64,000 nt of DNA, taken from positions 62,001 through 126,000 of the forward strand of contig JAEUSP010000088.1 in the NCBI GenBank assembly GCA_016788565.1, in the 5' to 3' direction. A model generated the notes under the pieces. It was not told the DNA's origin and made no database searches. It saw only the letters and a program-made list of their open reading frames with translations. Position 1 is the stretch's first letter. The number at the start of each line of letters is the position of its first letter. The position numbers and the translations under genes were made by a program. Source of the stretch: Chlorobiota bacterium (GTDB lineage Bacteria; Bacteroidota; Ignavibacteria; OLB7). Positions 452-63,891 of the stretch are shown piece after piece.

Positions 452-516
452 ATCCACCGAATCGCCCCCTCCGCTCATGCTGAGCCACGTCGAAGTATGA
501 GTGGAGCAACCGAACC
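452..516 (-). repeat. Dispersed palindromic repeat, family A, copy 1
   Basis: Read on the minus strand this stretch matches copies at about 35992-36050, 62606-62665 and 62749-62810. The common core is CTCCRCTCATACTTCGACG, then GGCTCAGCATGAGCGGAG. The ends CTCCGCTCAT and ATGAGCGGAG are reverse complements, so it can fold as a hairpin. All copies are intergenic. This copy sits between the protease gene and the terminator of the hydrolase gene. No coding function is seen. Confidence 0.75.
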
Positions 517-3267: not shown

Positions 3268-3330
3268 GGGTGAGAACATTGGCGTGGTTCAGTGTCTTTA
3301 CGAAGTGCAGTAATGGACGTAAGTTCCCGC
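3268..3330 (+). promoter_or_regulatory. Conserved 63-bp leader of P-family genes, copy 1
   Basis: The block begins GGGTGAGAA, has TGTCTTT at offset 26 and CGTAAGTTCC at offset 51. The same landmarks with identical spacing occur at 3943-4005 and 60728-60790, each shortly upstream of a P-family FG-GAP gene. It is probably the shared promoter or 5' leader. It may simply be homologous DNA duplicated with the gene, although the bases between landmarks have diverged. Confidence 0.5.
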
Positions 3331-3359
3331 CAACCAACAACCTGAATCGGAGATCAACG

Positions 3360-3593
3360 ATGAGCATCAAAACCACCTTCCTTCTTGCTGTTCTGCTTGC
3401 CCTGTCAAGCCTACCCCTTCATGCCCAAATCAGCGACACCATCCTCCCAAATCCAAAAGCCGTTCTGCTCAAACGCATCTGGATGATTCGCGGCTCCACT
3501 AGTGGGGGAGAACAAATAGGAATGGGTGCAGGTTCCGTTGGTGATGTTAGCCACGCCCAACCCAAGTATATCGTTTCGCGCCGCCGTGGATAG
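3360..3593 (+). pseudogene. Truncated P-family FG-GAP T9SS protein (N-terminal piece)
   Basis: The 77 codons encode a signal peptide (MSIKTTFLLAVLLALSSLPL, then HAQ) and the family opening ISDTILPNPKAVLLKRIWMI, closely matching the start of the intact gene that follows at 4035. Homology is lost after about residue 65 (GAGSVGDVS), just before the first FG-GAP repeat, and the frame stops at TAG. The same frame continues after the stop into a fragment of the unrelated M family. The 561-residue body and the sorting tail are missing, so it is a remnant left by recombination. A short secreted peptide could still be made. Confidence 0.7.
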
Positions 3594-3926
3594 CATACAG
3601 TGTTGGCCAACGGCCAGCGGGGGCCACGCTTTAGCCGCGAGACCGCACAACGGCTCAACATCCGAGTAACATGGCTCGGTGGGGAGAAAGTTGCCTTGCG
3701 TTCCATTGCCTTGCGGGATTCGTTGGGGCAACTCATGTTCGGTCGCGGCACAAGCCACGATACCTACCGTAGTAGCTTGATGGATCGGGTGCGGCGGTTG
3801 ATCTATGGCCCAAGCCTCAACCCCGATTCCCTGCGCCGCAACATTATCGGCATCTACAGCGGCGAAGAACCCTTCCCGCAAGAAGTCACCGGATACGCGA
3901 AGAGTAGTTTAGCGACTGAGAAGTGA
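3594..3926 (+). pseudogene. Internal fragment of the M-family glycosidase-like gene
   Basis: About 108 codons match an internal part of the 1703-residue M protein (around its residues 335-430). The beta-rich segment RVTWLGGEKVALRSIALRD is followed by YGPSLNPDSLRRN and IYSGEEPFPQEVTGYA. Bases 3803-3898 differ from 7000-7095 at only two of 96 positions, while upstream sequence is much more diverged. The homology stops right after GYA, and the frame ends a few codons later. With no signal peptide of its own and no sorting tail, this is a pseudogene piece fused downstream of the truncated P gene. Confidence 0.7.
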
Positions 3927-3942
3927 AGTGTTTGCCTTGTGT

Positions 3943-4005
3943 GGGTGAGAGCATTGGCTTGGTTCGGTGTCTTTAGGAAGTGGGGCAGCTACCGTAAGTT
4001 CCCGC
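3943..4005 (+). promoter_or_regulatory. Conserved 63-bp leader of P-family genes, copy 2
   Basis: Same landmarks and spacing as the leader at 3268: GGGTGAGA, TGTCTTT, CGTAAGTTCC. It lies about 30 bases upstream of the start codon of the intact P gene and is more similar to copy 1 than to the copy at 60728. Confidence 0.5.
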
Positions 4006-4034
4006 AAACCAAAGGCATCAATCGGAGATTGACT

Positions 4035-5720
4035 ATGATTATGAACATCAGCACCATCGCTCTGCTCCTTTGCCTGCTTGCTTTGCCAAGCATAGCTCTG
4101 CGCGCCCAAACCGCCGACACCATCCTCCCAAACCCAAAAGCCGTCTTGCTCAAACGTATCTGGATGGTGCGTGGCTCCACCGGTGGTGGGGAACGGGTGG
4201 GGGATGGAGCAGGTAGTGTTCACGATGTAAACAACGATTCTCTCTCAGACATTGCTGTCTATAGGGGCAGAGATGAACGTTGGGGTATTTACTTGGGCGA
4301 TAGAACTACTGGAGCTACCCCTTCAATGTGGAGCTTTGATTCTTCCTCATCAGTTCCAGCACATCCAACGGTTGGGCGATTCTTTGGCGATAGTCAACAA
4401 GTCGTTGGTTTTCCTCGATACGAACGAATAGATTCATTAGGGAGAACGCAGTTTTTTTTGAAGTATAGTTTCTTCAAAGTTGACAGTATGGGCTTACAAT
4501 CCGAGCCATGTATGGTGTTTGATCCATCAGCAACGATACTCTCAGGGGGCGAGTTAGTTCTTAGTGATATTCTGACCTCCGATTTAGACCTTGATGGCGA
4601 TGACGAGCTGATCGTAGCGGTGCGCTATACGTTGATTGACACGGTCATTTCTAGAACAGGATTGATCTGGATATTCGCTGGCGGGCCAAACTTCCAAGTG
4701 GATTCTCCAACTGTTATCCTTCGCGATACCGAGCCTAATCGCATTCGCTATTCGCTCAACATTGCTCAGCTCAACAACGATCCCTATCCCGATCTCCTCA
4801 TTGCTGGTGACTATGAAGACAACCGTGCCAATAAACTTAAATTCTTCTGGGGCAAACCTTCCCTGCAAGAACTCTCTACTACACCCAATCGCTCCATTAC
4901 TCTAACCGACCCATTCTACCCGCGCATTGGTAACGGCATCGGGCTTGCCGATGTGGATGCCGATCTCGTCACCGACCTCTTCCTTCCCGGACCCGATGGT
5001 AAGATCTACCTTTGGCGCATGGGCATTCCCACGAAAGACCCGCAAACTCGCTCGCTTCGACTTGATGATGCTGAGGTTTCCTGGGTCTCCAATGGATACC
5101 TATCTCCATCCCGGCCGGGGAGTCTCAATGACTCCACCACCAGCCGCCAGATGATCGGTTTCGTTGGCCCATCCCCATTGGGTGGAGCAATGCTGGTTGC
5201 TCTCTCGACAAACCAACAACCGATCAACCCAACCTATGAGGCATTCTATGGTGGTGCCTACGACGGCTTGGGGCCGTACAACGTCTTCAGCAATAACGAT
5301 GGCCCTGCCGGTGATGTAAACGGTGACGGGTGGTGCGACTACCTGACCGCTCAACCCAAATGGCCAGCCAGCGATGCTGGCATTGCCATGATCCTTGCCG
5401 GTGGCCCCTACATCCCGCGAGACGATGCCACCACCAGTGTCCACGATCTTCCTGCCGAAGGAAAACGCGATGCCCTTGCGGTCTGGCCAAACCCGGTCAG
5501 TGAGGTGCTGAACATCGCTTGGCGCGGCGACTTGCAACGGATGCCACGGCGCTTTGTGATCCACAGAATCAACGGCGAACGTGTTGCTGGCGGAGTGGTT
5601 GAGCCAAGCGTGGGGGCAGCAATCTGGCATTGTGAAACAGTGGCATCCGGCAGCTACCTGCTGACAGCCTACGATGCCAAGAATCAGGTGATTGCTACAA
5701 CAACCTTCATCAAACAATGA
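4035..5720 (+). CDS. FG-GAP/VCBS repeat protein with T9SS sorting domain (P family)
   Basis: A 561-residue secreted protein. A signal peptide (residues 1-25, ending LRAQ) precedes the family opening TILPNPKAVLLKRIW. The body holds several FG-GAP/VCBS-type segments with aspartate-rich calcium-binding loops: DVNNDSLSDI, DLDLDGDDELIVA, LADVDADLVTDLFL and DVNGDGWCDYL. These predict an integrin-alpha-like beta-propeller. The C-terminus (AVWPNPVSEVLNIAWRGDL to the end) is a type A T9SS sorting domain, implying export through SprA and cell-surface attachment or release. ATG 4035 is preferred because it directly precedes the signal peptide and has GGAG about 8 bases before it. Paralogs lie at 3360 (truncated), 60822 and 63892. 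The M-family gene follows after 86 bases that contain a CTTCGGCA hairpin (5740-5759), so co-transcription is likely. Confidence 0.85.
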   Translation: MIMNISTIALLLCLLALPSIALRAQTADTILPNPKAVLLKRIWMVRGSTGGGERVGDGAGSVHDVNNDSLSDIAVYRGRDERWGIYLGDRTTGATPSMWSFDSSSSVPAHPTVGRFFGDSQQVVGFPRYERIDSLGRTQFFLKYSFFKVDSMGLQSEPCMVFDPSATILSGGELVLSDILTSDLDLDGDDELIVAVRYTLIDTVISRTGLIWIFAGGPNFQVDSPTVILRDTEPNRIRYSLNIAQLNNDPYPDLLIAGDYEDNRANKLKFFWGKPSLQELSTTPNRSITLTDPFYPRIGNGIGLADVDADLVTDLFLPGPDGKIYLWRMGIPTKDPQTRSLRLDDAEVSWVSNGYLSPSRPGSLNDSTTSRQMIGFVGPSPLGGAMLVALSTNQQPINPTYEAFYGGAYDGLGPYNVFSNNDGPAGDVNGDGWCDYLTAQPKWPASDAGIAMILAGGPYIPRDDATTSVHDLPAEGKRDALAVWPNPVSEVLNIAWRGDLQRMPRRFVIHRINGERVAGGVVEPSVGAAIWHCETVASGSYLLTAYDAKNQVIATTTFIKQ

Positions 5721-5806: not shown

Positions 5807-8800
5807 ATGACTACCATGCAGAGGATCGAACGCCATGCCACCCGGCAGGCTCCATCGCACACACATCGCTCACAACGTGAGTGCTCACACATCCACCGCT
5901 GGGTTCGGCACTTGGTGCTGCTTGCGGTGCTTGGCATTGTGCCAATAGCAGTTTCGCCACTGGCAATACAGGCACAATCGGTTCCCCCCATCCAACGTTG
6001 GCCAGGGGTGGGCGATGAAGAGTTCTTGATGGGAGCCTATGAAGCAACCCGCACTGGCAGCGACCAGATACGGAACTTGTGGGAGTTTATGGGGAAGTTC
6101 GGCATCACCACGCTGATCCGCACCGGGCATGATGACCCGCGCCGTGTGGATTCGCTGATGTGGGCAGCCGGAGCAAACCAACGGTTAATCACCGATAACG
6201 AGACGATGTTCCGCGTGGGGTGGGGACGGAGTTTGGAGTTCTACCTGTTCGATTCCACACAATCCCCCTTCAACCAGTGGAGGTTTGCTAGTAAGTCGGG
6301 CGGCATTAGTGATACGAATCTGATTGAAAGGAATCAGGATCAGAGTGCCGCATGGGAGCGGGTGTATTCGATAGACGACAGCACGGTAGCCAACCAAGTG
6401 ATCGCCGAGAAGGTTTGTTTTGATTGGACGAACAAGCAGACCTATCGCTGGCCACGTGGCGTTGATGACGACGACAGCCTTCAGCATTCCGAGAAGTTCC
6501 TGAACTACGAACGTTACGGCAAACCCGACACCACCCTCTACCTTGCTGCCATCGGCCATCTGTTTGGTGCTACTGCCGCACCAAACACAACACAACTCTT
6601 CAAGATTGAGGTGTTCCATGAGATACCGAAAGGGGTGAAGTACTTCCTTCCTAACAACACCAACGAGTATGCTGCCGGGGTGGATACTCTCCAACGGGAT
6701 ACCGTCCTCTATGTCACCAAAGCTGACTTTACTCCAGCTGGGACTAACCCGAACTATAACCTGTACCAGGAGGTCGTCTTCCCACTATACCTGCGGTACG
6801 TTGAGAACGGAGCGCGTGGCCCGTTGCACGGCCAAAGCCAATCACAACGCATTGATGTTCGCGTCACATGGCTCGGTGGCGAGCGCGTTGCCTTGCGCGC
6901 CATTGCCCTTCGCGATGCCGACGGACAACACCTCAGCGGACGCGACGCAACCGCACGGACCTTCCGCGCCAACCTCTTCGGCGACCTTCGCCGTTTCCTC
7001 TACGGCCCAAGCCTCAACCCCGATTCGCTGCGCCGCAACATTATCGGCATCTACAGCGGCGAAGAACCCTTCCCGCAAGAAGTCACCGGATACGCACTGT
7101 TCGACCGAATGCTCCGCGATACCTTCAATGTTGTGAACGCTTCCAACAGCAACCTTCGCGATAGCTTGCCGCTGTTCAGCGCGCAATCGGGTGTCACCCA
7201 CCCCAAGTTCGATCACTCCATCATCCGCGCCCCCTTTGTTGTGCGCGAATCCTACATGAACGGAGTTGCTGACCTGAAAGACAAAGACCAGTATAACCAG
7301 CACATCCCGACCCTCTTTGGTGTCCCCTACTTCCATACCCCCAGCATTGCCGAAACCAATGGTGGACGCTTCCATATTCCGCTACTTCGGCTTACCCCCA
7401 GCGATGTTGATGACTACACCACCACCATGCAGCGGTGGTTGTTTGGTGCCCACATGCCGAACCTTGACATCAAACGCAACTGGTTCCAACAGAACACCAT
7501 GGCCTATGATCTTGGCCAAGCGGCAATCACCTCGCGGCAAACCGGTCGGCGATTGATCCAGCTTCCCAGTCTGAACATGGAGATTGTCTTCCGCCCCGAT
7601 ACCACGATCAATCAACAAACGCAGGATACGGCCATTGCCCTTGATACGCTGATCAGCCATGTCCCCACCGAAGCCGAGGTGCGGTGCATCGTCAATCTGG
7701 GGCTTGCCTACGGGATGCGTGGCATAGCGTGGTGGTGGGTTGGTGGCTACCAGAACTTCATCAACAGCTATCAACTGCAACCATCGGGGGACACGTTGTG
7801 GTACGGAACAATCGGTGGAGGCTTTGGTCCAGTAGGTTCGCAGACCAGTGACACAGTGCAAGATCATGTTGCACAGTTTCCTTTCACCGGAAGCACCAAC
7901 CCCGATACTCGTGTGACCATCCCGAATTTTTTTGCTGGACGTGGTACTCGCACACGGGCATTGCGGAAGATTCAAGGATGGCTTGGAGCCATTGGCCCAG
8001 AGATTGCCAAGCTACGGTGGCGGGAAAGCTACAGCCTGCATTTTTCCGCACAACGCCCCAACACAGTGGACACAAATTTCGGCACCCGCCCGCTTCCGGC
8101 CAGTGAAATCATCACCGAAGTGAAGTCCTACAAACTCAACGACACCGTTGCCGACGCGCCCGAAGCCACCTTTGTGGAGCTTGGGCTGTTCGATAAGAAA
8201 ACCGGAACAACCAACGGCAATGCTGATCCCAAGAAGGATACCAACTACATCTTTGTCGTCAACCGCCGCACCTTCGAACCACCAGATTCAGGCGTAATCA
8301 TTTCTTCGACCCGCCGCGACAGCATGGTGGCGTTAGCCGAAAACCGCCGAATCCGGCTGAAGCTGAATTTGCTGCGCAAGGATTTCCAGCAATATGAGTT
8401 TGTGCAGGTTCGCGAGATTGCAGCCGACACCACGCGCTTAGTGGGCGACAGCGTACCCCGGCAGCCCCTCAGCGTTATCATACCCGCCGACGGAACGATT
8501 GAACTTCCGCTTCGCCCCGCGGGGGGATCATTGCTGGAAATCATTTACAAACAACCGGATGAAAGCGTGATTGCTGGGAAGCTGGAGACCAACAACCAAC
8601 ACAAGATGGTGTATCTGAACGGACGCTACTATTGCGTTTATACGAAGGACACCGCCCGATGGGTCAACTGCCCAGGCCTGACACCGCAAACAACCACCAG
8701 CAGCTTTGTATTCCTGCGCCGCTCCTTGCCAGTGGATACAACCGGAACGATTCTGTGGGAACCGATGGAGGATTCGGTGGATTACGACGACCCCTGCAAT

Positions 8801-10918
8801 TTCTTGATTGACAACCGCCACCCAGCACTCACCGTACGCCGAACGGGCTCGGGAGATTTTGCCGTAGCCACGGTGACATGGACCGCCCATGCAAGGGATA
8901 CGAACAGCAGCAACGTTCGTGCGGTGTATGCACGGGATATTGGCTTTGGTACAACAGGGAATGTGCGTGTGTTTGGGAACATCGAGCGGGTAGCCTACTA
9001 CCATCCAACCGATCCGAACAAGTTGGCGTGTAGCGATGTTCGCAATGTTTGGGGAACGCCTGTGGTGTGCCGAACAGCCAAGGGCTACACCTTTGCCTAC
9101 AGTTGCGCCAAAGCTGGCATCGTTGCTCGTGTGCGGAACTATACCCCCAACGGATCAAGCTGGCCAGTAACCGGAGCATACTCTGGCTACGACAGCATTT
9201 CGCTACATAACAATGATAACAGCGGTTACGGGCGCGGGCTGTACCCTTCGGTTCCAGCGTTTGCGCACGAAGCATCGGGGGATTCCAGTTGTGGGATTGC
9301 TTGGCAGCAACCCAATAGCCGACGGGTTGATTTTGACAAAGATGTTCATAGTGGCGACACGATTGCCCTGAACTACCAAATCCGCTACGCACGGCTGAAG
9401 CAAGTGCCTGGCGTTGGTGGCGCGCCAGCCCTTTCGCAGAGCTATCGCAACTTCCGATTTTCCAACAATGCCAATGGACCTGTGGCTATCGAAGGGAACA
9501 CTGCCGATTTCAACGATTACCGCTATCCCTGCATTGACCAAACGCAAGACATCTATGGGCGCATTCAGGAAATGGTGACGTTCCAGTCGCTGGAAGAGAA
9601 ACCGCTACTGATCAATCCCAGCCTTGCCCAGCAACCAGCAAGGAATTGGGATCTGTTTTACGTGCTGCGTCTGCGAAGCATCTACACCGATCCGCAAGAA
9701 CGCTCGTGGTTGTGGGGAGCCTTTGAACTGCTGACGGCCAACGCCATCTTTACTCGGCCTTCCGATTGGGTCTATCAGCATCGCCTGAACGCCACCGTCG
9801 GTTCCTTGAACGATATGACCGCTGCGCTCTCCACCAGCCCCGTTGCCTTCTTCTCGATTGCCTACAATACTCCTGGTGGCTTAACCATGCGCCAAACCAC
9901 TGCTCGCTACACCGAGCCGTTAGATTCAGCACGGAAGAAAGATGCCAAGTACATCTATGGCGGGACCTATCCCCAAGCCTCTTGCTCGCCGCAACATCAA
10001 GTCTTCAAAGAATCCGTGCTCTATCAGACCGACCCTGCGCTGCGAACCATACGCCAGTTCTTTGCTCGCACTCGCCCAAGCGGATACCTTGCCCACGGTC
10101 GCAGCCTTGCCTTCAGCGTGGACGATTCCTCGGCAACCGCCTTCCACACCTCACTCTTCGATCTTTGGTATGCCACCGATAGCGTTGCTGCGCCGTTGCA
10201 CCTTGCGGCATTGCCAAACTATCAACGCATGGAGCTTGACAGCCTGGGGCAAGTCCCACTGCTGTTCCGCACTCCAACCTTCCAAGCGCACGACAGCGTT
10301 CAGATTGGCTTCAGCCTGAGCGGGAGGTTTGGTGGGGTGATTGATACGCTGAACACCGCACAGGTTCGCCTGCGGCTGGAGTTGATGAACGCAACTGCCG
10401 ATACGGTCGTGACGGTGTTGGATTCGGCCACGGTGACGATGAGTTCGCCCGATCATGGATTGCTGAGCGAGCCGGTGTTGGATTTGCTTTCGGGAAGCTA
10501 CTACATCCGTCTGCGGCTCGACACGCTGAACATCCCCGGCCTGGTGTGGAACCCGAATGGGGCGCCGCAGTATCCGGTAGTTGATCTTCACGGCTGGATG
10601 GGTGATGACAACGGCGGCTTGAGCAAACTGCGTCGCGAAGGAGCCACCACCACCGCCCAAGCCCGGATTGATGCGCAACCGAACCCGTTCACCGGAAGGA
10701 CGGAGTTGCGGTTCAGCATTCCGAGTGCTGGCTCGGCAACGGTTCGTGTGTTCGACCCGATTGGCCGCCCGGTTGCCGAAGTCGTTCCGCAGCAATGGAT
10801 GGAGGTTGGCCGCTACGCCGTGGAGTTCGACGGAAGCCAGCTGCAACCAGGGACCTACCTGGTGGAGTTGATGCTTGGCCAGCAACGGGTTGTGGAGAAG
10901 ATGGTGGTGGTGAGGTAG
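5807..10918 (+). CDS. Giant T9SS-secreted protein with glycosidase-like domain (M family)
   Basis: 1703 residues. An N-terminal cytoplasmic stretch leads to a membrane-type signal (residues about 35-55, LVLLAVLGIVPIAVSPLAI). From about residue 60 the protein looks like a TIM-barrel glycosidase: FLMGAYEATRTG, then FGITTLIRTG. A glutamate-rich loop SGEEPFPQEVTGY (E419, E420, E425) follows, then near 633 LAYGMRGIAWWWVGGY, a pattern typical of the last strands of clan-A glycoside hydrolases. A beta-rich module (about residues 250-400) sits within the first half and recurs alone in the 307-residue paralog at 62919. The remaining thousand residues are beta-rich and unassigned. The end (DAQPNPFTGRTELRFSIP onward) is a type A T9SS sorting domain. 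Activity and substrate are inference; no family number can be given from reading alone. Confidence 0.75.
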   Translation: MTTMQRIERHATRQAPSHTHRSQRECSHIHRWVRHLVLLAVLGIVPIAVSPLAIQAQSVPPIQRWPGVGDEEFLMGAYEATRTGSDQIRNLWEFMGKFGITTLIRTGHDDPRRVDSLMWAAGANQRLITDNETMFRVGWGRSLEFYLFDSTQSPFNQWRFASKSGGISDTNLIERNQDQSAAWERVYSIDDSTVANQVIAEKVCFDWTNKQTYRWPRGVDDDDSLQHSEKFLNYERYGKPDTTLYLAAIGHLFGATAAPNTTQLFKIEVFHEIPKGVKYFLPNNTNEYAAGVDTLQRDTVLYVTKADFTPAGTNPNYNLYQEVVFPLYLRYVENGARGPLHGQSQSQRIDVRVTWLGGERVALRAIALRDADGQHLSGRDATARTFRANLFGDLRRFLYGPSLNPDSLRRNIIGIYSGEEPFPQEVTGYALFDRMLRDTFNVVNASNSNLRDSLPLFSAQSGVTHPKFDHSIIRAPFVVRESYMNGVADLKDKDQYNQHIPTLFGVPYFHTPSIAETNGGRFHIPLLRLTPSDVDDYTTTMQRWLFGAHMPNLDIKRNWFQQNTMAYDLGQAAITSRQTGRRLIQLPSLNMEIVFRPDTTINQQTQDTAIALDTLISHVPTEAEVRCIVNLGLAYGMRGIAWWWVGGYQNFINSYQLQPSGDTLWYGTIGGGFGPVGSQTSDTVQDHVAQFPFTGSTNPDTRVTIPNFFAGRGTRTRALRKIQGWLGAIGPEIAKLRWRESYSLHFSAQRPNTVDTNFGTRPLPASEIITEVKSYKLNDTVADAPEATFVELGLFDKKTGTTNGNADPKKDTNYIFVVNRRTFEPPDSGVIISSTRRDSMVALAENRRIRLKLNLLRKDFQQYEFVQVREIAADTTRLVGDSVPRQPLSVIIPADGTIELPLRPAGGSLLEIIYKQPDESVIAGKLETNNQHKMVYLNGRYYCVYTKDTARWVNCPGLTPQTTTSSFVFLRRSLPVDTTGTILWEPMEDSVDYDDPCNFLIDNRHPALTVRRTGSGDFAVATVTWTAHARDTNSSNVRAVYARDIGFGTTGNVRVFGNIERVAYYHPTDPNKLACSDVRNVWGTPVVCRTAKGYTFAYSCAKAGIVARVRNYTPNGSSWPVTGAYSGYDSISLHNNDNSGYGRGLYPSVPAFAHEASGDSSCGIAWQQPNSRRVDFDKDVHSGDTIALNYQIRYARLKQVPGVGGAPALSQSYRNFRFSNNANGPVAIEGNTADFNDYRYPCIDQTQDIYGRIQEMVTFQSLEEKPLLINPSLAQQPARNWDLFYVLRLRSIYTDPQERSWLWGAFELLTANAIFTRPSDWVYQHRLNATVGSLNDMTAALSTSPVAFFSIAYNTPGGLTMRQTTARYTEPLDSARKKDAKYIYGGTYPQASCSPQHQVFKESVLYQTDPALRTIRQFFARTRPSGYLAHGRSLAFSVDDSSATAFHTSLFDLWYATDSVAAPLHLAALPNYQRMELDSLGQVPLLFRTPTFQAHDSVQIGFSLSGRFGGVIDTLNTAQVRLRLELMNATADTVVTVLDSATVTMSSPDHGLLSEPVLDLLSGSYYIRLRLDTLNIPGLVWNPNGAPQYPVVDLHGWMGDDNGGLSKLRREGATTTAQARIDAQPNPFTGRTELRFSIPSAGSATVRVFDPIGRPVAEVVPQQWMEVGRYAVEFDGSQLQPGTYLVELMLGQQRVVEKMVVVR

Positions 10919-22697: not shown

Positions 22698-23641
22698 GAT
22701 TCCTGTTGGTTCGGCGGGGTTCCTTCGTCGGTGGCGCGTGGGTGGGCAAGATTGTAGGCGTTTTTCAGCCGCTCGATGGTGACGTGGGTATAAATCTGGG
22801 TGCTGCTTAACGAGGAATGCCCCAACAACTCACCCACCTCGCGGATTCCCGCGCCGGCATCCAACAAATGGGTGGCAAAACTGTGACGCAGCACGTGCGG
22901 GCTTTTCTTTTTTTGCTCGGTGATCCCCTTCATGTAGCGGCTCACCACGCGGTAAATTCCACCGCCATCGAACGGGTTGCCACGGTTGGTGAGGAACAGA
23001 GCGTCGGGCAGGCCATCGGCTACCAACTCCATGCGGACGTTCAGATATTCGCGCAGTGCGTTGGCGGCATCGCGGCCAAAGGGGACAATCCGCTCCTTCC
23101 CCCCTTTGCCCGTCACTTTCATGGTGTTGTTGGCGTGGTTCACGTCCCGCAACCGGATACCACAAAGCTCGGCACGGCGAAGCCCGGTGGAGTAGAATAA
23201 TTCAAGAATGGCAGCATCCCGTTTGCCGTTGGTGGTTGTGGTGTCGGGGGCCAGCATCAGGTTTTCTGCTTCGTTCGCGCTCAGCACGGTGGGAAGCCGT
23301 TGTTCGGGGCGCGGGGCCACCACCAGCGCGGCTGGGTTCGATTCAATCCACTCCATCTGGCGGCAAAATTTGGTGAACGATTTCAGCGCGGCAAGCCTTC
23401 TGCCAATGGTCCGCCGCGACTGCCCGGCTTTGTGCAACGCTGCAATGAAACCACGAACCTCACGCGGGGTTACATCCCCCAGCATCGGTAAGTCCACGCC
23501 AAGCACATTCCGCAGATGTTCGGTAAACCGCTCAAGGTCCCCCTGGTACGCCTCGATGGTTTTTGGTGAGTAGCGTTGCTGAAGCTCCAGATGCTCCAAA
23601 AATTGGCGCACGGCAATGTGAAATGGGATTGGCTGCTGCAT
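22694..23641 (-). CDS. xerC: Tyrosine recombinase XerC/XerD type
   Basis: A 315-residue integrase-family recombinase. The N-terminal SAM-like DNA-binding domain holds FLEHLELQQRYSPKTIEAYQ. The catalytic domain carries the full set of active-site residues: R in TGLRRAELC, K in GKGGKER, HxxR in PHVLRHSFATHLL, H in LGHSSLSSTQ and the nucleophile Y in IYTHV. Length is normal for chromosome-dimer resolution recombinases (about 300), and no phage genes are near, so a housekeeping Xer role at dif is favoured over an integrase. Whether it is XerC, XerD or a single XerH-like protein cannot be decided here. It is the first gene of a two-gene unit with the barrel protein. Confidence 0.88.
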   Translation of the reverse strand: MQQPIPFHIAVRQFLEHLELQQRYSPKTIEAYQGDLERFTEHLRNVLGVDLPMLGDVTPREVRGFIAALHKAGQSRRTIGRRLAALKSFTKFCRQMEWIESNPAALVVAPRPEQRLPTVLSANEAENLMLAPDTTTTNGKRDAAILELFYSTGLRRAELCGIRLRDVNHANNTMKVTGKGGKERIVPFGRDAANALREYLNVRMELVADGLPDALFLTNRGNPFDGGGIYRVVSRYMKGITEQKKKSPHVLRHSFATHLLDAGAGIREVGELLGHSSLSSTQIYTHVTIERLKNAYNLAHPRATDEGTPPNQQES

Positions 23642-23831
23642 GGATTGCTCTGCTTGTACAGATTCTGTTTGTTGGGGAAATCACGGTGGCAATCTACATG
23701 AATCATTTGGTGGGACAACCCACTCGGCACGGCAGAAACTCCGTTTGCCAGCATCATTTTTTTCCCGTTCTTGCTCACCGTCAGAATCATTGAGCAAACC
23801 GTTCTTCTTCATCGCATTTCACGCTGGCTCC

Positions 23832-26800
23832 ATGAACCTCTATTTCCGTTCCTTGCTGATTGCCTTCACCCTGCTGTTCCTGCTGCTGCGGAACCAGCCA
23901 TTGGCTGCGCAGCCAACAATCTCCTACATCATTCCCGACATCGGTACGCCGGGGATGAACACCTATGTTGAGGTTATCGGGCCACAAAACAAGTCGGGAA
24001 ATTTTGGGGGAACCAACGACGTTATCGGCAACGGCCAAGTATCGGTGCAAACCGTCAATCCTGCCGATACCAACCGGGTGATGATCTCACCCCCGATTGT
24101 GAGTTGGCAAGGGAGGATGATTGGCTGCCAGATTTTTGTCCGCGATGATGCCGCGTTGGGGCCGGTTCCCATTCGGGTGGTGGTGAACGGGGTGCAATCC
24201 AACGCCGACACCTTTTTCATTGTGGCACCGCAAACCATTGGCAACCAGAACGGCGGCGGCCAGCTTGGCAGCGGCACGCTTGGCCGACGCTCGAAACGGG
24301 GGGCGATGATTGTGGACAGCTTGATTTTAACCAACGGAATCTACACCATCAGCACCGGCGATACCGACCCGCAGACCGGTGGCGGGCAGGGGTATCTTCC
24401 ATGCGTGATACTGAGCAAAGGCCCCGTGCTTGTTGGCTTCAATGGCGAAATTGTGGTTGATGCGATTGGGAAACATGGCGGTCCCGGCGGCGGTGGCAGC
24501 GGCGGCTACGGCGCAACCCGGCCAGCACAACCACCGCTGATCCCGGCAGTCCCCGGCGAGCTTGACGTTCCGCTTGGGAACGGTTTTTCAGGCGGGGTCA
24601 GCAGTGTTCCGGTAGTCCCTTCGCCGGGCGGGTTTGGGATTGGAACCGGGCCGAACTCTGCCAGCTTGAACGGAGTAAGAGCCAACACCAGTTTCAGCAC
24701 CACCCGTTTGTACAGCGGCGGCCCGGGCCACCCGTTCGATTCCGATGGCCGCAGCGGTGGTTCGGCAGCGGTCAGCACCAACCCGTTTGCGCCGTTCGGA
24801 ATCTACTTTGGCGGCGGCGGAAATGCTGGGCCGGGGACGGGGATCACCGCACCCAGCTTCCTTTCGGTGAACGGCCAAGTGATTGGCAACGCCGCCATTG
24901 TTCCGCTGCATGGCGGGGCGGGTGGGTCCAGCGGGGGAAGCAACGACAGCGTTGGCGGCGGCGGTGGTGGCGGGATTGCAATCTACTCGCAAAGCGGACT
25001 TTCCATTGCCTCCATCACCGCAAACGGCGGCAACGGGCGGGATGGGTTCGACTGTGGTTCGGTGCTGCAAGGGTGTGGCGATCCTTCTGCTGGAGGCGCG
25101 GGGGGCTGCATCATTTTGGGGGCGCGAGGGATCGTCAGCAGCGGCACAGCCCACACACGCGGCGGAAGAGGGGGCAAAGCGGCAGCCGTTGCTCTGCCAG
25201 GCTCAACAGCTGGCGATGGTGGGCCAGGGCGATTCCGATACGACGGCATCAACGCCGGAGCAGCCTTCACTACCACAACCGGCGGAAGTTCCAGCCGGGG
25301 GATTTCCTTCAACCCAATCTCCACCACTCCCACTCCCAGCTTTTTCCTTTCCGGCTCGGCCAACACTGGCGACACCGTGTTGATCTACTACCGCACCAAC
25401 CGCCGCCCCTGGAACAGCACCGCTCCACTGAAGGTTGTGACAACCGGCGTGCTGTGGGCGCAGCAAATCACCTTGCAGCCGGGGGATTCAACGGTGTATC
25501 TGTTTGGGCTTCGCCGCAGCCTTGCCTCCGAGCTGGCCACCTCCACCCCCTACCAGCAGGTTCCCGCAGGAATCTTGTCACAGGTGGCTGCGGCCATTGT
25601 AAAATTTCAACCAGCACCGTTGATTCAGGCCACGCTGCGCACATCGGGCGATTCGCTGATTTGCGATAGCGTTCTGTACGACACCATTACCATCCATAAC
25701 CGTGGCGCGGCACCGCTTAGGATTGATCCACAAACCAGAATCACCGCTACCAACGGTGTTATTGCCCAATTGATCCTGAGCCTTGCAGTCATTCTTCAAC
25801 CGTTGGACTCTGTCCGGGCAGTGGTGCGGGTGCAGGGGAATGGAGCCACCGGGCGCGTTGGCTACACACTCTCCATTATCAGCAACGACCCCGATCCTTC
25901 GCGAAGCCCGATGAAGATGCTCATTGAGCATTTCATCTTCCCGATGAAGTATCAAATGTCCCCACTGCTAGATTTTGGGGATGTGCGCATCGGGTTGCCG
26001 AAGGATAGTCTGTTGAACATGAGAAACACAGGCGGGGTGGATATTCAAGCCACAAATTTCACCCCACTTGCAACTCCATTTTCAGCCCTTTGGGATCCAG
26101 CATCGCCCGTCACGATTATGCCACCCGCCGGGTACGCTTTCCGTTTCCGTTTTGCCCCGCGCGACACCGGGTTGTTTGTTGCCACGCTACGCCTGCGGCT
26201 GCAACCATGCGGGGTTGACACCGCAATCACGTTGCGGGGATATGGCCGTTCGGGGATTATCACCACAGCAACCGATTGGGCATTCGACCAAGCAACCTGT
26301 GCCGACACCGCAACGCAACGCTACTTGGTGAAGAACACCGGGAACGATACGCTAACATTACAGCAGCCAGCAGTTACTGGTGCTGGGTTCGCGTTGGTGC
26401 AGCCTGCGGCGGGGATGTGGCCAATCGCGCTTGCCCCAAAAGATTCCATCTTCATCTACTTGCACGCCAACCTGAACGGAGCGGCCAGCATCAGCGGCAG
26501 CGTAGTTTTCCAAACCGATGACTCGTTGCCCGGGAAAAACCCACACAGCGTTAGCCTGACAGCAGCGCGCGATAACGTGAAGTTGTTGGGGGATAGCATC
26601 ATCAATTTTGGGAAGGTCTGTGTGGGGTCATCGGCGGCACGAAATGCCCGCTTGGTGAATGGGGGAACACGCACCGTTGCCACGTTGGAGTCGGGTGTGT
26701 TTGCCGCGAACACGGCGGCGTTTGTCATCAGCAACAGCGCGTTCCCACGCACGCTTTCGGCCAGCGCGCAGGATAGCGTTCTGGTGCAATTTTCGCCAAC

Positions 26801-28562
26801 CCGAACCGGACCGTTTGTGGATACGTTGGCGATATTCTACCGCCCCTGCAACCAGTTTCGGAACATTGTTGTGATTGGCGAAGGGATTGCCAACAGCGGG
26901 GAATACTCCGTTCAGGGAGTTGACTTTGGCGATGTTCCATTAACCCAACCAGCACAGCGAACGGTGGTGATTCGGAACACAGCCACCACCCCGGGCCAGG
27001 ATTTGGTGATTGACCGCCTAAGCAGCGATCCCCGGCTGCGCATCCTTTCGCCAACCATCCCCCCTGCCCTGCGGATCGCACCGAACGACTCGGTGGTGGT
27101 GACGATAGAGTTTGCCCCCACCGCACCCGACACCTTGAAGAATGCCTATCTGACCGCCACCATCGCCAGCCCGTGCGCAAGCACGATACTGCTGCCAATT
27201 TTTGGACAAGGGGTTGGGGAAGGGCTTCTGCTCAGTAAATCAGTTATCGGCTATCCACCAACGCTCCGTTGCCAAAACAGCACCGATACGCTGGTGATTT
27301 GGAACCGAACCGGAGCCGCGGTCCAGTTGGGAACAATCTCCCTTGTTCCAAGCTCGGCAACGGCCTTTCTCACGGTGCAGCAGCTTGTTGGAAACAACAC
27401 CATTCTCCCCCAAGATTCGGCTCTGTTTGCCATTACATTCACCCCAACCGATCCCCCCGATGGCCCGCGTTCGGCCACGCTGCAATTCACCACAACCGAC
27501 CCGCAACGCCCACTGCTTCAGGTTCCGATCGTGGGGGAACGCGCCACGCAGCAACTCACTTTTCCAATCATCAATTTCTTCAACACCCCGGTGCAAACCT
27601 CGGCATCGGTGCGGCAACTGCTGCAAAACAGCGGGACGGCATCGGTGGAGATCAGGTCGCTGACGGCTCCCCCGCCGTTCCGGGTGGTTGCCACGCGCCC
27701 GGGCTTGCCGATTACGCTGAAAGTCGGGGAATCGGTGGAAGTTGAGTTGGAGTTCAGCGCGGCAGAAGCGGGCACATTTAACGACTCCATCAGGGTTGTT
27801 GGCACATTCCCGTGCGGCGAAACGCCAGCATTCCCAATCAGCGGGCGGGCGGTGGCGCAGCTTGATCTATCGGGATATTGGGAAGATATTTCCGCCGCAC
27901 CCGGCCAGGAAGTGTTGCTTCCGTTGCGGGTTGATCGGGACCTGACCCCAGCAGCAATCACCGGGTACAGCATCACTCTCGGGTTCAACCGAACGCTGCT
28001 GCGGCCCACCGGAATCATCCTTGATGGAACGCTCTCGCAGGGGTGGACAACGATAATCAGCAAGATGGAGCCTGGGGTTGTGGAGTTCACCGCAGGTGGC
28101 GCAACGCCGCTTCGTGGCTCTGGAATCGTAGCCTACGTTGCTGCGCGCGCAACGCTTGGGGATTCGGTTTCAACGCTCATCGCCTCCCCAAGCTCGGCAC
28201 AGCTAACGGGATTATCCACGGCCCTATCCATTGCCCCGGGGCTGTTTCGGCTACGCGATGTTTGCGAAGAAGGGGGCGTTCGGTTAGTGCGTAGCACCGG
28301 TGGCTTCGGCATAAAACTGGTGGCTCCCCAGCCCGCAACTGGGGAAACGGAGGTGACGATTGGGACGGTGGAAGATGGAAGCGTTCTGGTGCGATTGCTG
28401 GATGCGCGGGGGTCGGTGGTGGAAACGTTGGTGAAGGAATCCTTGCCGCATGGCGAGCATCGGTTGCGGCTATCGGCAGGTTGGATAACTGCTGGGGTCT
28501 ATTTCCTTGAGCTACGCACCCCCACGCAAACGGATCGTCGGGCAATCATCATTGCCCGTTAG
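23832..28562 (+). CDS. Giant T9SS cargo with Gly-rich, choice-of-anchor and cohesin-like domains
   Basis: 1576 residues from ATG 23832, which directly precedes a signal peptide (residues 1-28, ending PLAAQ); the frame is open further upstream but that part overlaps the xerC start region. An IPT-like start (TISYIIPDIGTPGMNTYVEV) is followed by a long glycine/serine-rich stretch at about 130-490 (many GGGGSGG runs). Several choice-of-anchor/ASPM-SPD2-Hydin-type beta domains follow, recognised by repeated FGDVRIGLPKDSLLNMRNTG-like units (about 710-1330). Near 1360 a cohesin-like domain (PGQEVLLPLRVDRDLTPAAI) appears. The end (GFGIKLVAPQPATGETEVTI onward) is a T9SS sorting tail. A surface or adhesive role is inferred. 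Confidence 0.8.
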   Translation: MNLYFRSLLIAFTLLFLLLRNQPLAAQPTISYIIPDIGTPGMNTYVEVIGPQNKSGNFGGTNDVIGNGQVSVQTVNPADTNRVMISPPIVSWQGRMIGCQIFVRDDAALGPVPIRVVVNGVQSNADTFFIVAPQTIGNQNGGGQLGSGTLGRRSKRGAMIVDSLILTNGIYTISTGDTDPQTGGGQGYLPCVILSKGPVLVGFNGEIVVDAIGKHGGPGGGGSGGYGATRPAQPPLIPAVPGELDVPLGNGFSGGVSSVPVVPSPGGFGIGTGPNSASLNGVRANTSFSTTRLYSGGPGHPFDSDGRSGGSAAVSTNPFAPFGIYFGGGGNAGPGTGITAPSFLSVNGQVIGNAAIVPLHGGAGGSSGGSNDSVGGGGGGGIAIYSQSGLSIASITANGGNGRDGFDCGSVLQGCGDPSAGGAGGCIILGARGIVSSGTAHTRGGRGGKAAAVALPGSTAGDGGPGRFRYDGINAGAAFTTTTGGSSSRGISFNPISTTPTPSFFLSGSANTGDTVLIYYRTNRRPWNSTAPLKVVTTGVLWAQQITLQPGDSTVYLFGLRRSLASELATSTPYQQVPAGILSQVAAAIVKFQPAPLIQATLRTSGDSLICDSVLYDTITIHNRGAAPLRIDPQTRITATNGVIAQLILSLAVILQPLDSVRAVVRVQGNGATGRVGYTLSIISNDPDPSRSPMKMLIEHFIFPMKYQMSPLLDFGDVRIGLPKDSLLNMRNTGGVDIQATNFTPLATPFSALWDPASPVTIMPPAGYAFRFRFAPRDTGLFVATLRLRLQPCGVDTAITLRGYGRSGIITTATDWAFDQATCADTATQRYLVKNTGNDTLTLQQPAVTGAGFALVQPAAGMWPIALAPKDSIFIYLHANLNGAASISGSVVFQTDDSLPGKNPHSVSLTAARDNVKLLGDSIINFGKVCVGSSAARNARLVNGGTRTVATLESGVFAANTAAFVISNSAFPRTLSASAQDSVLVQFSPTRTGPFVDTLAIFYRPCNQFRNIVVIGEGIANSGEYSVQGVDFGDVPLTQPAQRTVVIRNTATTPGQDLVIDRLSSDPRLRILSPTIPPALRIAPNDSVVVTIEFAPTAPDTLKNAYLTATIASPCASTILLPIFGQGVGEGLLLSKSVIGYPPTLRCQNSTDTLVIWNRTGAAVQLGTISLVPSSATAFLTVQQLVGNNTILPQDSALFAITFTPTDPPDGPRSATLQFTTTDPQRPLLQVPIVGERATQQLTFPIINFFNTPVQTSASVRQLLQNSGTASVEIRSLTAPPPFRVVATRPGLPITLKVGESVEVELEFSAAEAGTFNDSIRVVGTFPCGETPAFPISGRAVAQLDLSGYWEDISAAPGQEVLLPLRVDRDLTPAAITGYSITLGFNRTLLRPTGIILDGTLSQGWTTIISKMEPGVVEFTAGGATPLRGSGIVAYVAARATLGDSVSTLIASPSSAQLTGLSTALSIAPGLFRLRDVCEEGGVRLVRSTGGFGIKLVAPQPATGETEVTIGTVEDGSVLVRLLDARGSVVETLVKESLPHGEHRLRLSAGWITAGVYFLELRTPTQTDRRAIIIAR

Positions 28563-35991: not shown

Positions 35992-36050
35992 GTTCGGTGG
36001 CTCCGCTCATACTTCGACGGGGCTCAGCATGAGCGGAGAGCTGGATTCGC
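35992..36050 (+). repeat. Dispersed palindromic repeat, family A, copy 2
   Basis: Starts GTTCGGTGGCTCCGCTCATA, then CTTCGACGGGGCTCAGCATG, then AGCGGAGAGCTGGATTCG. Nearly identical to the copies at 62606 and 62749 and to the reverse complement of 452-516. Confidence 0.8.
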
Positions 36051-48555: not shown

Positions 48556-51500
48556 ATGGGTGCTGTCTTGACCAATTTCCGACGAACCTCCGGGTTCCTG
48601 TTCATTCTTGCATTGCTGATGCTCCTTGCGGCGGCCGCTCCGGTTGCTGCACAGGACTCCACCGGGCGTGCCTCCACCCCAACCACCGTTACCCCGCGCA
48701 CCCAAAGCTCTCCGTTCACCGACCCATTCCCCTTTGAAGCCTACCAGCATTACGTTGAGTTCGACTCGGTGGAGAACCTTGTGCGAATCCGCGAAACTCT
48801 GTTCGGCCAGCCGATTGGCCAGCCACTGACTCTGACGCTGGATCAATACATTGCCGAACGCCAAAAATCGCTGGAACGCCAGATGTGGGATCAGCGGCTG
48901 AAACGCTACTCGGTGGATAGCGCGGCATTAGCCAGCGCAAAATCCCCCGACACCACCGCAAAGGAGAAAGACCTTGCCGACATTGTTGGATTGCCGAAGG
49001 AGATCAAAATTCCAATCCCGCAAAACCCACTGTTTTCCATTTTTGGCGAGCCTACCGTCAGCATCAATGTGAACGGCAGCGTGAACGTGAGCGCGGGGTG
49101 GCAATGGGACAACAACAACCTTACCAGCATCAACGCGCTGGGGACAACGCAGTCGGCCCCGTTCTTCAATCAGAACATCCAGGTGGCGGTTAGCGGGAAG
49201 GTTGGCGATAAGCTGAAACTGAACGCAGATTTCGACACACAACGCGCGCTGGATATCGAGAACCAGTTGAAGATCAGTTTTGGCGGCGGCCCGGCAAGCG
49301 ACGACGACATCATCCAGTCGGTGGAAGCGGGGAACGTCAGTTTGCAAACGCCAAGCCAATTGGTGGGAAGCGCGCAAGCACTGTTTGGGGTGAAATCCAG
49401 CTTCAAGTTTGGGAAGCTGTTCCTGACTGCACTGGCATCGCAGAAACGGGGCGAACGGAAAACCGTCAGCGTCAGTGGTGGCTCGGTGAAAACCAAAATA
49501 TCGCTGAAGCCCTACGACTACGCCCCCAACCACTTCTGGTTAGACACCGCCTACCGGAATTTCTACGACCGCTACTACGCCAACCAGCCGCCAGCCGCAA
49601 CGCCAGATATGGCCCCCTGGAACATGACCGACATCGAAGTCTATGAGCAGGTAAAGGATGGCTCAATCCCCTCACAGTTCAAAGCAATCGCCTACGCCGA
49701 TCTTCCCCCGGTTGGCCCAAGCGGGCGGTACGATGCTGCATTCCGGCAACTGAGCGCAAACACGGTTTCCGGCGAAGTTCAGCCGGCATCGTTTATCAAG
49801 CTGGAGCAAGGGAGGCATTTTGAGTACGACCGCCAGCTTGGCACACTCACCATCAAGACTCTGCAGCGGGATAAAATCTACGCCGTGGCATTCAAGACCA
49901 GCGGGCGCGGAACCTACGGTGAGTTCAGCAACACCCGCGGCGACTCCACCGAGGTTGGCGTGCTTCGGCTGATTTACGTGAGCAACCTTCAGCCAGGCTT
50001 CAAAACCTTGTGGACGCGGCAGATGAAGAACATCTACCAACTGCAAGGGGTGCGGAACATTGACTTGGGGAACTCCACCATCACCATCAGCTACGGCGTT
50101 CCCCCCGACACCAACGAAGTCCTGAAAGTCAGTGGCAATCCACGGCTGGTTGAAGTGCTGGGCGTGGACCGCACCAACAGCTCCAACCAATCGGTCCCCG
50201 ATGGCGAGTTCGACATCCGCACGCCTTACTTCTTTGATCCAGTACGGGGTGAGATCACCTTCCCCAGCACCGAGCCGTTCCGCAAAGGGCTGCGCGAATC
50301 GCCGAAGCTGGCGGGGAATGCCGAGCAGTTCGTCATCAACTCCATCTATGACCAAACCCGCGAGGAAGCCCAGCAGCAGGACACCCGCGTTGGCCGCTAC
50401 ACGATTGGCGGCGAGATTGCCGGAAGCGGCGGCAACAAAATCAACCTGGGGGTGATTAACCTTGCCCGCAACTCCATCAAGGTTTCGGCCAACGGCGAGA
50501 TGCTGACCGAAGGGCTGGATTACCGCGTGGATGAAGTCTTCGGCGAAGTCACGCTTCTTTCCCCAAAAGCCAACAGTGCCACCGGGAATATCCAAGTGGA
50601 GTTCGAGCAGAACGACTTCTTCACCATTGCCCAAAAAACCTTGCTTGGGCTGCGGGCCGATTATGACCTGCTGAACAAGCGGAATATCAAGTCCAAGCTG
50701 GGGATGACGATGATGCAGTACAGCCAATCGCTCCCCACCAACAAAGTGCAGATTTACAGCGGCGAAGAACCGGTCACCAACCTTGCCGTTGGCTTCGATG
50801 GCTGGGTGGATTTCCGCGCTCCGTTCCTCACCAAAGCCATTGACGCGCTCCCCTTTTTCAGCACCACCGAGGCCTCGAACATCAAAATTGGTGGCGAGAT
50901 TGCCGCAATCATCAGCAACCCAAACAACAAGGAAAGTTTGGTGCAAAGCGATGCCGGAAAAGGGGCCGCCTACATTGACGATTTTGAATCGGGAGCAAAG
51001 CGGCAGATTCAGCTTGGGATCAACTACACCCTGTGGCATCACTCCAGCGCGCCGCTGGACCCGCAGCTTGGCCCCGACGACACCGCCCGCGTGGCGAACC
51101 GCTCCCTGTTCTACTGGTACAACCGCCAGCCGGCCAACGAGGATGTGAAGAACATCTGGCCGAACCGCGACGTTGGGACCTACTCCCAAAAAGCCTCCAT
51201 TCTGGATGTGGTGATCGAGCCAGATTCCCGCGGCATCTACAACCCAAATTTGAACTACGAGAACAACGTCCCGCGCGACAAAGCCTGGGGCGGCATGATG
51301 CGAAGCCTCTCCTTTTTCACCACCAACTTGAACGAGGAGAACATTGACTACATCGAGATTACTCTGCGCGCCGATGAGTTCGACCCGAACAACACCGAAG
51401 TCTATCTGGATTTGGGGCAGATCAGCGAAGACGTGATCCCCAATTTGGATCTGGACACCGAAGACGGCGCGACCGCAAACAACACACAGCAAGATGACGT

Positions 51501-54500
51501 GTTGAACGAAGGGGAAGACATCGGCATTGACCGGCTGAACGACGAGGGGGAACGCGCCAAGTTCGACGGAAACGAAACCGACCCCGCACGCGACAATTTC
51601 CAGTTCGACAAGTACGGCAGCAATTTTTGGGAAGACTACCGCAGGGTGAACGGCTTGGAGGGAAACCAGGGGCGCGAAAGCGGGCCGTTCCCCGATGCCG
51701 AGGACCTGAACGGCAACAAAAGTTTGGATCTTGACAACAGCTATTTTCGCTACAAGATCAACCTGGACAACGACGCGACCCGAAACCCACAAATCGTTGG
51801 CGGCGGCGATAATCCGAACGGGTGGCGGCAATACCGAATCCCGCTCCGCACCGGATTCCAGAAAATTGGGAACCCGTCGTTCAGCAACGTCCAGTTTGCG
51901 CGAGTGATTGTCAAAAGCCCATCGCGGGCAAGGATTCGGTTTGCGGAGTTCAACATGGTGGGAAGCGACTGGCGCAACGCCGACATCGCCATTGGCGACA
52001 GCACCCGCGACCCCAAACTGGATGTCTCCTTTGTGAACCTTGAAGACAACAGCGGCCCCCCCGATTTCTACACCGTCCCCCCCGGCGTGGATCGCGAGCG
52101 TGAGTACAGCACCGACATTCTGAAGAACGAGCAGTCGTTGGCCGTGCGGGTGCAAGATTTGGAGCGTGGGGAATCGCGCTCGGCAGTGCGGGTGCGGCCG
52201 CGCGCGTTCGATATGTTCAACTACAAAAAAATGCGCTTCTTCTTTCACGGAAGCGGCGACATGGATGCCGAACAAGAACCCGGGCAGCCGGCAAAAGTGG
52301 TGGCATTCATCCGGTTTGGCTGGGACAGCACCAACTACTACGAGTACCGCGTGCCGCTGCTTCGCGATTGGCATGAGTACACCGTGGATTTCGGGGACCT
52401 TGCGGCAATCAAGCAGCAGGCAGCAACCACCGTTGGCGGGGTGCAGTTCTTCCCCGTCCCCGGGCAGCCAACCGCACAGTTCGCGCTCCGCGGAATGCCC
52501 TCGCTGACACGCATCCAATTCATTTCCTTTGGGGTGGAGAATAACGCCTACCCGGGCGCGCTCACAACCACGATGTGGGTGGATGAGCTTCGGGCGGTGG
52601 AGGCCGAGGACGAAACCGATTGGGCCGCCACATTCCAAGCCAACACCAAGCTGGCCGACTTGGGAACCGTGAACTACAACTTCAGCCGCACCAACCCGAA
52701 CTTCCACCGGTTGGAGGATCGTTTCGGCAACCGCGTGGAGGCCACAAACCACGCAACCAACATCAGCCTTGCCTTCGATAAATTCATGCCGACGGCACTG
52801 AAAGGGACCACACTACCGTTCACCTACAACCACGTTGAGAAGATTGAGAAGCCGCGCTACGTCAGCGAATCGGATGTTGAGGTGGAAGCCGCTGCCGAGC
52901 GGATCGTCAGCGATGGCGGGGCCGACCCCGCCGCCGCGCAACGCCGCGCCGATAGCTTGCGAACCGCCACCCAAACGTTGGTTGTGCAGGATGCTTTCAG
53001 CTTCGCCAACGTAGCTCCAAAATTCCCGGGAACGGCGTGGTACGTGCGCGACATCTTCAATCGTTTCCAATTCGGCTACGACTACAACCAAACCCGCAGC
53101 CGCAGCCCGCTGATTGAGCAGCGATTCGAGTGGCAATGGAAATTCCGTGGGCAGTACAGCACCAGCATCCCGCAGAACTTCGACGTGAAGCCACTGACCT
53201 TCCTGGGTGATGTTCCGGTGCTCAGTTTCTTCAAAGATTACAAGATCAACATGCTCCCCACCAGCCTCACGTTCAAAACGGACGTGACGCGCGGGCGCAC
53301 CACCGAGCAACTGCGTGGGCTGGAAAGCCCAAGCCCAGTGATTCGGGAGTTCGGGACCTTCCGGAACGCAAACTTCCGCTGGCCGATGACCGACAACGGG
53401 TTGCTGAACATCAGCACCGAGTACAACCTGGATGTGTACGGCTCACTTACCGATGTTGAGCTTGGCACCGACGGCAAACAACGCACCGGCGGGGAAATCG
53501 CCAGCGACCTGTTTTTCAACGATGGACGGCTGTTCAATTTTGGGCGAGATTATGAGATGAAGCAGGTGTTCAACTTCAACGGCCGCCCGCGCATCCCCTA
53601 CCTGAACACCGCACGCTACAAGGTGGAGTACGGGTGGCAAGATCAACTGAACCCAACCATCACCACCGGCAGCTTCACCAAGCGCGCCAACTGGAACAGC
53701 CAAGCCACGCTTGGCCTGGAGTTTCCGCTGAAGCAGATTGGCAACACCCTGTGGGGCGCGCCCCCCAACGGCCTGCCCGACACCGCCAGCGAAAGCACAA
53801 TCGCAAGCGTGCTGCGCTACCTGATAAAAATTCCATTTTTGGAGTTCGACCGCCTGACGATCACCTACAGCCAAAACAACAGCAGTAAGAACGATGGCGT
53901 GTTGGGGGCAACCGGTATCTCCAATTTCTGGGGCCGCTCCCTTTTCCTCCGTTCCGAGTCGCCAAATTTTGGCCCGGGAACCGCCTACCAGCTTGGCCTA
54001 ACCGACGACCCACACTCCAAACTGAACTTTGGATTGAAGTCCGCCTTCCCGTTCATCAGCGTGGAGAAGGAGGCGGGATTGCGCGCACCAAATATCTACG
54101 TGCAAGATCAGTTCACGCAGGAAAACAACCTTCAGGGGAGCACGTCGCGGACGTTGTGGCCGGGGGCATCGCTGAACCTGAACTGGAACACCAAATGGGG
54201 CTTGAACCAGAACACCACCATCACCACCGACGGTGATGGAATCGTGACACAGGGGGATGTGCTTTCCACGTTCAACCGCTCGCGCAGCTACCTCAGCTTG
54301 CCCGATTGGCTCATCTTCAGCGCGTTCGATAACGACATCGAGGGGGTTGTGGATGAGTACGCACGGCGGAAAGGTGAGCTTCCGGTTCCGCAGCTTCCGG
54401 CAAACCCAACCGGGGCCGACTCCATCGCCTACGGCCAAGCCACCGTGGCCTACAACAAGCAGCTCACCTCCATCCTTTCCGAGACGTTCGAGCAACAGCT

Positions 54501-62477: not shown

Positions 62478-62605
62478 GACTTCCTAGTTCGGTGGCTCCT
62501 GCCTGCCCTCACCCCCCGCCCTCTCCCAATCGGGTAGAGGTGCTGGTTGCCTCACATTGGTCGGGTGGGAGAGGGAGCCAAAGCCGGGGAGAAGAGCAGG
62601 GCTTG

Positions 62606-62665
62606 ATTCGGTGGCTCCACTCATACTTCGACGGGGCTCAGCATGAGCGGAGGGCTGGATCAGTG
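62606..62665 (+). repeat. Dispersed palindromic repeat, family A, copy 3
   Basis: ATTCGGTGGCTCCACTCATA, then CTTCGACGGGGCTCAGCATG, then AGCGGAGGGCTGGAT. Same orientation as copies 2 and 4; about 140 bases before copy 4. Confidence 0.8.
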
Positions 62666-62748
62666 GCAATGTGGCCGGGGTTTGCCTCCCCTTTCCCACC
62701 AATCTTGGGGGGACGCGAAGCCCTTCAGGGCGAAGCAGGGGGGCGCGG

Positions 62749-62810
62749 GTTCGGTGGCTCCGCTCATACTTCGACGGAGCTCAGCATGAGCGGAGGGCTG
62801 GATTCGGTGA
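62749..62810 (+). repeat. Dispersed palindromic repeat, family A, copy 4
   Basis: GTTCGGTGGCTCCGCTCATA, then CTTCGACGGAGCTCAGCATG, then AGCGGAGGGCTGGATTCGG. Differs from copy 3 at only a few positions. Confidence 0.8.
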
Positions 62811-62918
62811 ATACTCCGATTCTTCATTTGGCATTCGACATTCGGCATTCGACACTTCGATCAATCCAAGCCACCGTTCGCGGTGGCATCCTCAATACTC
62901 TTTCATGGAGAAAATACC

Positions 62919-63842: not shown

Positions 63843-63891
63843 AGCATCGTGTTCTTGAAAGATGTTGAACCTTTGAAGGATCGAACAACCA

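Follow-up and report, generated by a model that had tools for sequence, protein, structure and literature searches.

A giant putative type IX secretion system surface protein with a probable GH42-like barrel, encoded in a two-gene cassette with an FG-GAP protein

Introduction

The DNA analysed here, referred to below as the window, is a stretch of 64,000 nucleotides from a Chlorobiota bacterium (contig JAEUSP010000088.1, positions 62,001 to 126,000). Among its genes is one for a very large protein, P0001, with a type IX secretion system (T9SS) sorting tail and a front half that had been read as glycosidase-like. The locus raises the question of what such a protein is and whether it degrades polysaccharides or does something else at the cell surface.

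Results

P0001 and its relatives

The P0001 reading frame occupies positions 5807-10918 of the + strand and is translated into 1703 residues without an internal stop. A probable signal peptide, RWVRHLVLLAVLGIVPIAVSPLAIQA, was recognised directly in the sequence (5897-5974, +). At the opposite end lies a T9SS type A sorting tail (residues 1617-1703; 10655-10915, +), of which residues 1625-1701 score 25.7 bits against TIGR04183, above the NCBIfam cut-off of 23 bits, and slightly below the cut-off in Pfam. Outside the tail, searches of Pfam, NCBIfam and PDB sequences gave no match. A gene of the T9SS translocon is located in the window as well, an ORF at 48556-55197 that matches SprA_N (E 1.1e-50), and its presence together with the sorting tail supports export by this system. 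Judged by these sequence signals, P0001 is probably a secreted T9SS surface protein. The sequence-only reading had described a T9SS protein of 1703 residues containing the motifs FGITTLIRTG, SGEEPFPQEVTGY (with E419, E420 and E425) and LAYGMRGIAWWWVGGY; the open frame, the tail and all three motifs were recovered. Its figure of about 1000 residues following the glycosidase-like part was too high, as about 700 separate the end of the N-terminal unit (near residue 915) from the tail. At 23640-28562 the window encodes a further large protein, of 1640 residues, which has Ig-like domains of the ASH/HYDIN type and matches the T9SS tail weakly.

Relatives of P0001, full-length or N-half and about 30-51% identical, are present in three more genomes from its taxonomic family, and P0001 is therefore not a chance reading frame. 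Within its own genome we found a full-length copy on C46 (37%), an N-half on C119 (36%), shorter copies on C115 and C111, and broken copies at C130:127832-130797 (internal stops) and on C83. At E 1e-3, any match at all was obtained in five of the 61 genomes searched, the own genome included, and in one of the five it covers 36 residues. The family profile gave short matches across the class in 37 of 294 genomes, mostly to other unassigned proteins. No relatives were present in the viral contigs searched, and a literature search returned nothing on the family. We conclude that P0001 belongs to a real, uncatalogued family of predicted surface proteins.

The closest relative, in a sister genome (L035:3629-3900; G001 C103), is split into two frames with a break near residue 800, caused by either a frameshift or an assembly error. 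Another relative carries the public-record label 'Armatimonadetes bacterium isolate SJ842', repeated here as given there; T9SS is normally a trait of the Bacteroidota group.

Domain layout

From the family alignment and the profile chain described below, residues 57-660 (5975-7786, +) can be laid out as a putative GH42-like TIM barrel with a long beta-rich insert at about residues 128-385. The motif EEPFPQE (residues 419-425; 7061-7081, +) would form the end of beta-4, residues 581-593 (7547-7585, +) beta-7, and residues 620-648 (PTEAEVR...LAYGMRGIAWWWVGGY; 7664-7750, +) alpha-7 and beta-8. The beta-6 region contains NGGR (residues 518-521; 7358-7369, +), a conserved polar loop special to the P0001 family. 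A beta-rich domain with the family consensus LRWRDGYSIH...VELGLFD...VNRR...LRPGGGALL completes the homologous unit (residues 690-913; 7874-8545, +). Beyond it, residues 925-1610 (8579-10636, +) are conserved across the family in alignment A6, have a beta-rich look and are possibly propeller-like; they match no family and no PDB entry. Beta-propeller repeats had been suspected by eye in residues 1003-1460, and the repeat test was not significant.

Evidence for a GH42-like barrel

Compared directly with GH42, GH5 and GH123, the P0001 family profile gave noise (0.3% in hhalign for GH123, PF13320). PF02449 (GH42) found no match in P0001, in other family members or in the whole genome. Profile searches of the PDB returned nothing with A1 and a sub-threshold GH42 entry, 5xb7 (E 0.19), with A4. 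Since the family itself does not rise above noise against these enzymes, the case for a barrel depends on a chain of two steps.

The first step leads to a set of T9SS-type proteins found throughout the class. Aligned with these class-wide relatives by hhalign, the P0001 family scored 99.9% (E 1.1e-33) over 404 columns, covering residues 349-913, and reversed and shuffled controls reached at most 0.5%; E420 fell on the glutamate of their DE(P) motif. Members of this set (L060, L063, L064, L067, L075, L080, L108-L111) have a D-E-P motif at beta-4 and GAKGIxYY, and Pfam assigns to them tails and beta helices, nothing else.

The second step joins the class-wide relatives to the L106 family with 95.5% in a profile-profile comparison (E 1.4e-8) over 48 columns, and it is around beta-7/8 that the confident columns of this middle link lie; their small number makes it the weak point of the chain. 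When the alignment was extended, DEP fell on DEP, YP on YP and Q on Q, and the order is collinear in both groups: DEP at beta-4, YP at beta-6, Q at beta-7, PTxxE, and GAKGIxYY at beta-8. A profile to which the class-wide relatives had been added reached L106, L107 and the like in the wider phylum. L106 itself passes Pfam GH42 (26.2 against 21 bits) and matches the PDB GH42 entry 9ta3 (E 3.4e-5). L110 clearly belongs to the class-wide family (E 1.8e-30 with its profile) and is borderline on GH42, with 21.8 bits in one search and 18.3 bits in another against the 21-bit cut-off.

These profiles suggest that the class-wide family is connected, weakly but consistently, to GH42-like TIM barrels of clan GH-A, and that the front half of P0001 probably descends from such a barrel. 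AlphaFold, run on residues 56-958 with a two-row alignment, gave an unusable model (pLDDT 29.3), so that the argument is made from sequence alone. The hidden TIM-barrel glycosidase-like domain proposed earlier is partly supported: the profile chain relates it to clan GH-A barrels, and no existing family covers it.

The likeness to GH42 beta-galactosidases (PF02449, clan GH-A) passes through intermediates and consists of the beta-4 glutamate and a beta-7/8 motif ending in GAxGixYF; unlike those enzymes, P0001 has no direct profile match and no nucleophile, and it has a long insertion, a very long C-terminal beta region and a T9SS tail. With the unnamed class-wide T9SS family (L060-L110 type) it shares residues 349-913, including the beta-4 glutamate, the beta-8 motif and the C-terminal beta domain. 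In contrast to the P0001 family, the class-wide relatives mostly keep D-E-P, YP and often QxH, and some of them end in beta-helix modules.

Conservation of the putative catalytic residues

In clan GH-A the acid/base glutamate is located on beta-4 and the nucleophile on beta-7. The enzymes of the clan share the barrel and a pair of conserved glutamates, one acting as acid/base and the other as nucleophile (PMC6637243). In an alignment of 14 N-halves, E420 was invariant (14/14) and E425 was retained in 13, whereas position 419 varies: four sequences have E there, six D, three I and one R. E420 aligns with the beta-4 DEP glutamate of the class-wide family and, via L106, with the acid/base position in the NE motif of GH42. 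At the beta-7 nucleophile position (residues 581-593) the alignment revealed no conserved acid in either the P0001 family or the intermediates. GH42 has IMEQ at this site and L106 has IVPQ, so that the nucleophile E of GH42 falls on P; the P0001-family versions are RLIQLPS, RMLSMIG, RHIPVIG and similar. E592 of P0001 is absent from its relatives, and where the class-wide relatives show YP and QxH, the P0001 family has the conserved NGGR loop instead.

E419, E420 and E425 had been put forward as catalytic residues. This assignment was not supported: all three are at beta-4, E420 alone is invariant, E419 is replaced by D, I or R in 10 of the 14 sequences, and an acid at beta-7 is not conserved. 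Without a conserved acid at the nucleophile position, there is no support for a classical mechanism with two glutamates; and because the three glutamates belong to one segment and do not make up an active-site pair, binding or unconventional catalysis is likelier than classical hydrolysis. Going by these alignments, enzyme activity of the P0001 family appears doubtful.

The alternative that survives best, possible although we think it unlikely, is an active glycoside hydrolase that needs no nucleophile of its own. As in substrate-assisted N-acetylhexosaminidases, E420 would serve as the acid/base and the acid at 419 would orient the 2-acetamido group of the substrate. The invariance of E420 and an acidic residue at 419 in 10 of the 14 sequences agree with this, as do the distant relatives, which mostly have D-E-P at that place and no beta-7 acid, and L106, which has C-terminal domains of the beta-hexosaminidase type. 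A D-E pair at beta-4 is a feature of GH123, and in most distant relatives the pair resembles that of GH123 and related N-acetylhexosaminidases. Against it, four of the 14 sequences carry I or R at 419, the D is not conserved in the P0001 family, neither DxYP nor QxH is retained, and there is no profile similarity to GH123 (PF13320).

A good deal less probable is that there is no TIM barrel at all and P0001 is a large beta-rich adhesin whose likeness to glycosidases is confined to a short stretch resembling beta-8. It is true that the links to enzyme families are strongest in the beta-7/8 segment and that structure prediction failed, but the motifs from beta-4 to beta-8 are collinear between the L106 family and the class-wide relatives, and the P0001 family aligns to the latter across 404 columns. 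The first suggestion, a retaining hydrolase of clan GH-A that works classically through a pair of glutamates, can draw on the conserved glutamate at beta-4 and on the chain of profiles leading to GH42. It is nevertheless very improbable, being largely refuted already by an alignment in which beta-7 has no conserved acid, E592 is unshared and the three proposed glutamates fall in one segment.

In the whole genome no GH42, GH123 or GH5 match was found, these being the three families searched, and a role in polysaccharide degradation gains no support from this result. We favour glycan binding for P0001. The counterpoint is that an invariant glutamate at the end of a catalytic strand usually means retained chemistry.

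Two-gene cassettes with an FG-GAP partner

Immediately before the P0001 gene, positions 3939-5720 (+) encode an FG-GAP repeat protein (Pfam FG-GAP_3, E 4.7e-7) with a weak T9SS tail match, and paralogues of it precede other giants. AlphaFold modelled this partner as all-beta with a pLDDT of 43. Two remnants lie further upstream: one of another FG-GAP gene at 3273-3554 (+; residues 4-99, 65%), and one of another giant gene at 3603-3899 (+; residues 332-430, 66%), which is a mosaic.

A search with this FG-GAP protein turned up eight copies or fragments in the own genome, and every one of them adjoins a giant gene or a remnant of one, two standing in tandem before a single remnant. The sister species has two FG-GAP/giant pairs (C20 and C103) in the same order. 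In a third genome, FG-GAP copies on C2 and C40 stand apart from any giant, and some giants lack an FG-GAP gene. The P0001 gene is the second in a two-gene cassette, behind the gene for a T9SS FG-GAP protein.

A second cluster of cassettes spans window positions 60822-64000 and C130:125888-130797, in the order FG-GAP gene, truncated giant, FG-GAP gene, giant pseudogene. It begins with the second FG-GAP gene of the window (60822-62477, +), followed by the truncated giant (62883-63842, +), which matches residues 139-394 weakly. The start of the third FG-GAP gene (63862-64000, +) runs past the window end, and the giant pseudogene is next (C130:127832-130797). The 5' ends of the truncated giant and of the pseudogene are 95% identical in DNA.

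A dispersed, palindromic REP-like element about 58 bases long was also observed; it folds to -24 kcal/mol, and several of its copies are 92-98% alike. Copies are located at window positions 467-515, 35992-36049, 62607-62660 and 62749-62824, at L049:1550-1625, and in L043 and L048; their neighbours are cassette genes and a Fur-family gene, the latter immediately downstream.

Segment exchange between copies

In the fragment at 3603-3899, the first 85 informative sites mostly have the allele of the sister species, after which the fragment is identical to the neighbouring intact gene. The maximum chi-square of this change, 46.3, was reached in none of 10000 permutations. At the 3' ends, the identity between the window and C46 paralogues rises from 24-36% to 86-91% in the last 100 or so residues, and the tail DNA of the window is 88% identical to paralogues of its own genome versus 79-82% to copies of the sister species. 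The mosaic fragment and the near-identical tails, which point to concerted evolution, are signs of segment exchange between cassette copies, but they are not proof of programmed variation, since the usual gain and loss of paralogues accounts for them equally well.

In the Borrelia vls/vmp systems, surface proteins undergo segmental gene conversion. The arrangement described here is like them in having partial copies beside an intact one, a mosaic segment and shared ends; it differs in that the copies are few, that it is known from single genome assemblies and that ordinary paralogue turnover could account for it. A repertoire of cassettes, each with an FG-GAP and a degenerate-barrel gene, whose fragments are gene-conversion donors that change T9SS surface glycan-binding proteins, seems to us improbable at present.

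Discussion

Taken as a whole, we read P0001 as a T9SS surface glycan binder with a degenerate GH42-like barrel that works with an FG-GAP partner and is encoded in recombining cassettes, and we hold the chances of this reading to be evenly balanced. The type IX system would export P0001, and the sorting tail would then fix it to the cell surface. Its N-terminal half would consist of a GH42-like TIM barrel, now degenerate and interrupted by a large beta-rich insertion, and of a beta domain behind it, and the remainder would provide an additional beta-rich scaffold. The protein would mainly bind glycan, be it of its own envelope, of a neighbour or of the matrix, rather than degrade it, because E420 is retained at the acid/base position but nothing occupies that of the nucleophile, and P0001 has lost the DxYP and QxH residues of its relatives. 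It may act together with the FG-GAP protein encoded directly upstream. Duplication and partial deletion of the two-gene cassette, with copies swapping segments, would diversify the surface proteins, and the cell may benefit from this.

What these data bring to light is an uncatalogued, class-wide T9SS-secreted family that appears GH42-like, has D-E-P at beta-4 and lacks the nucleophile, and is thus a candidate for a new family of glycoside hydrolases or lectins. Within one taxonomic family of bacteria it would have expanded into a group of very large surface proteins peculiar to that lineage, encoded in two-gene cassettes that appear to recombine.
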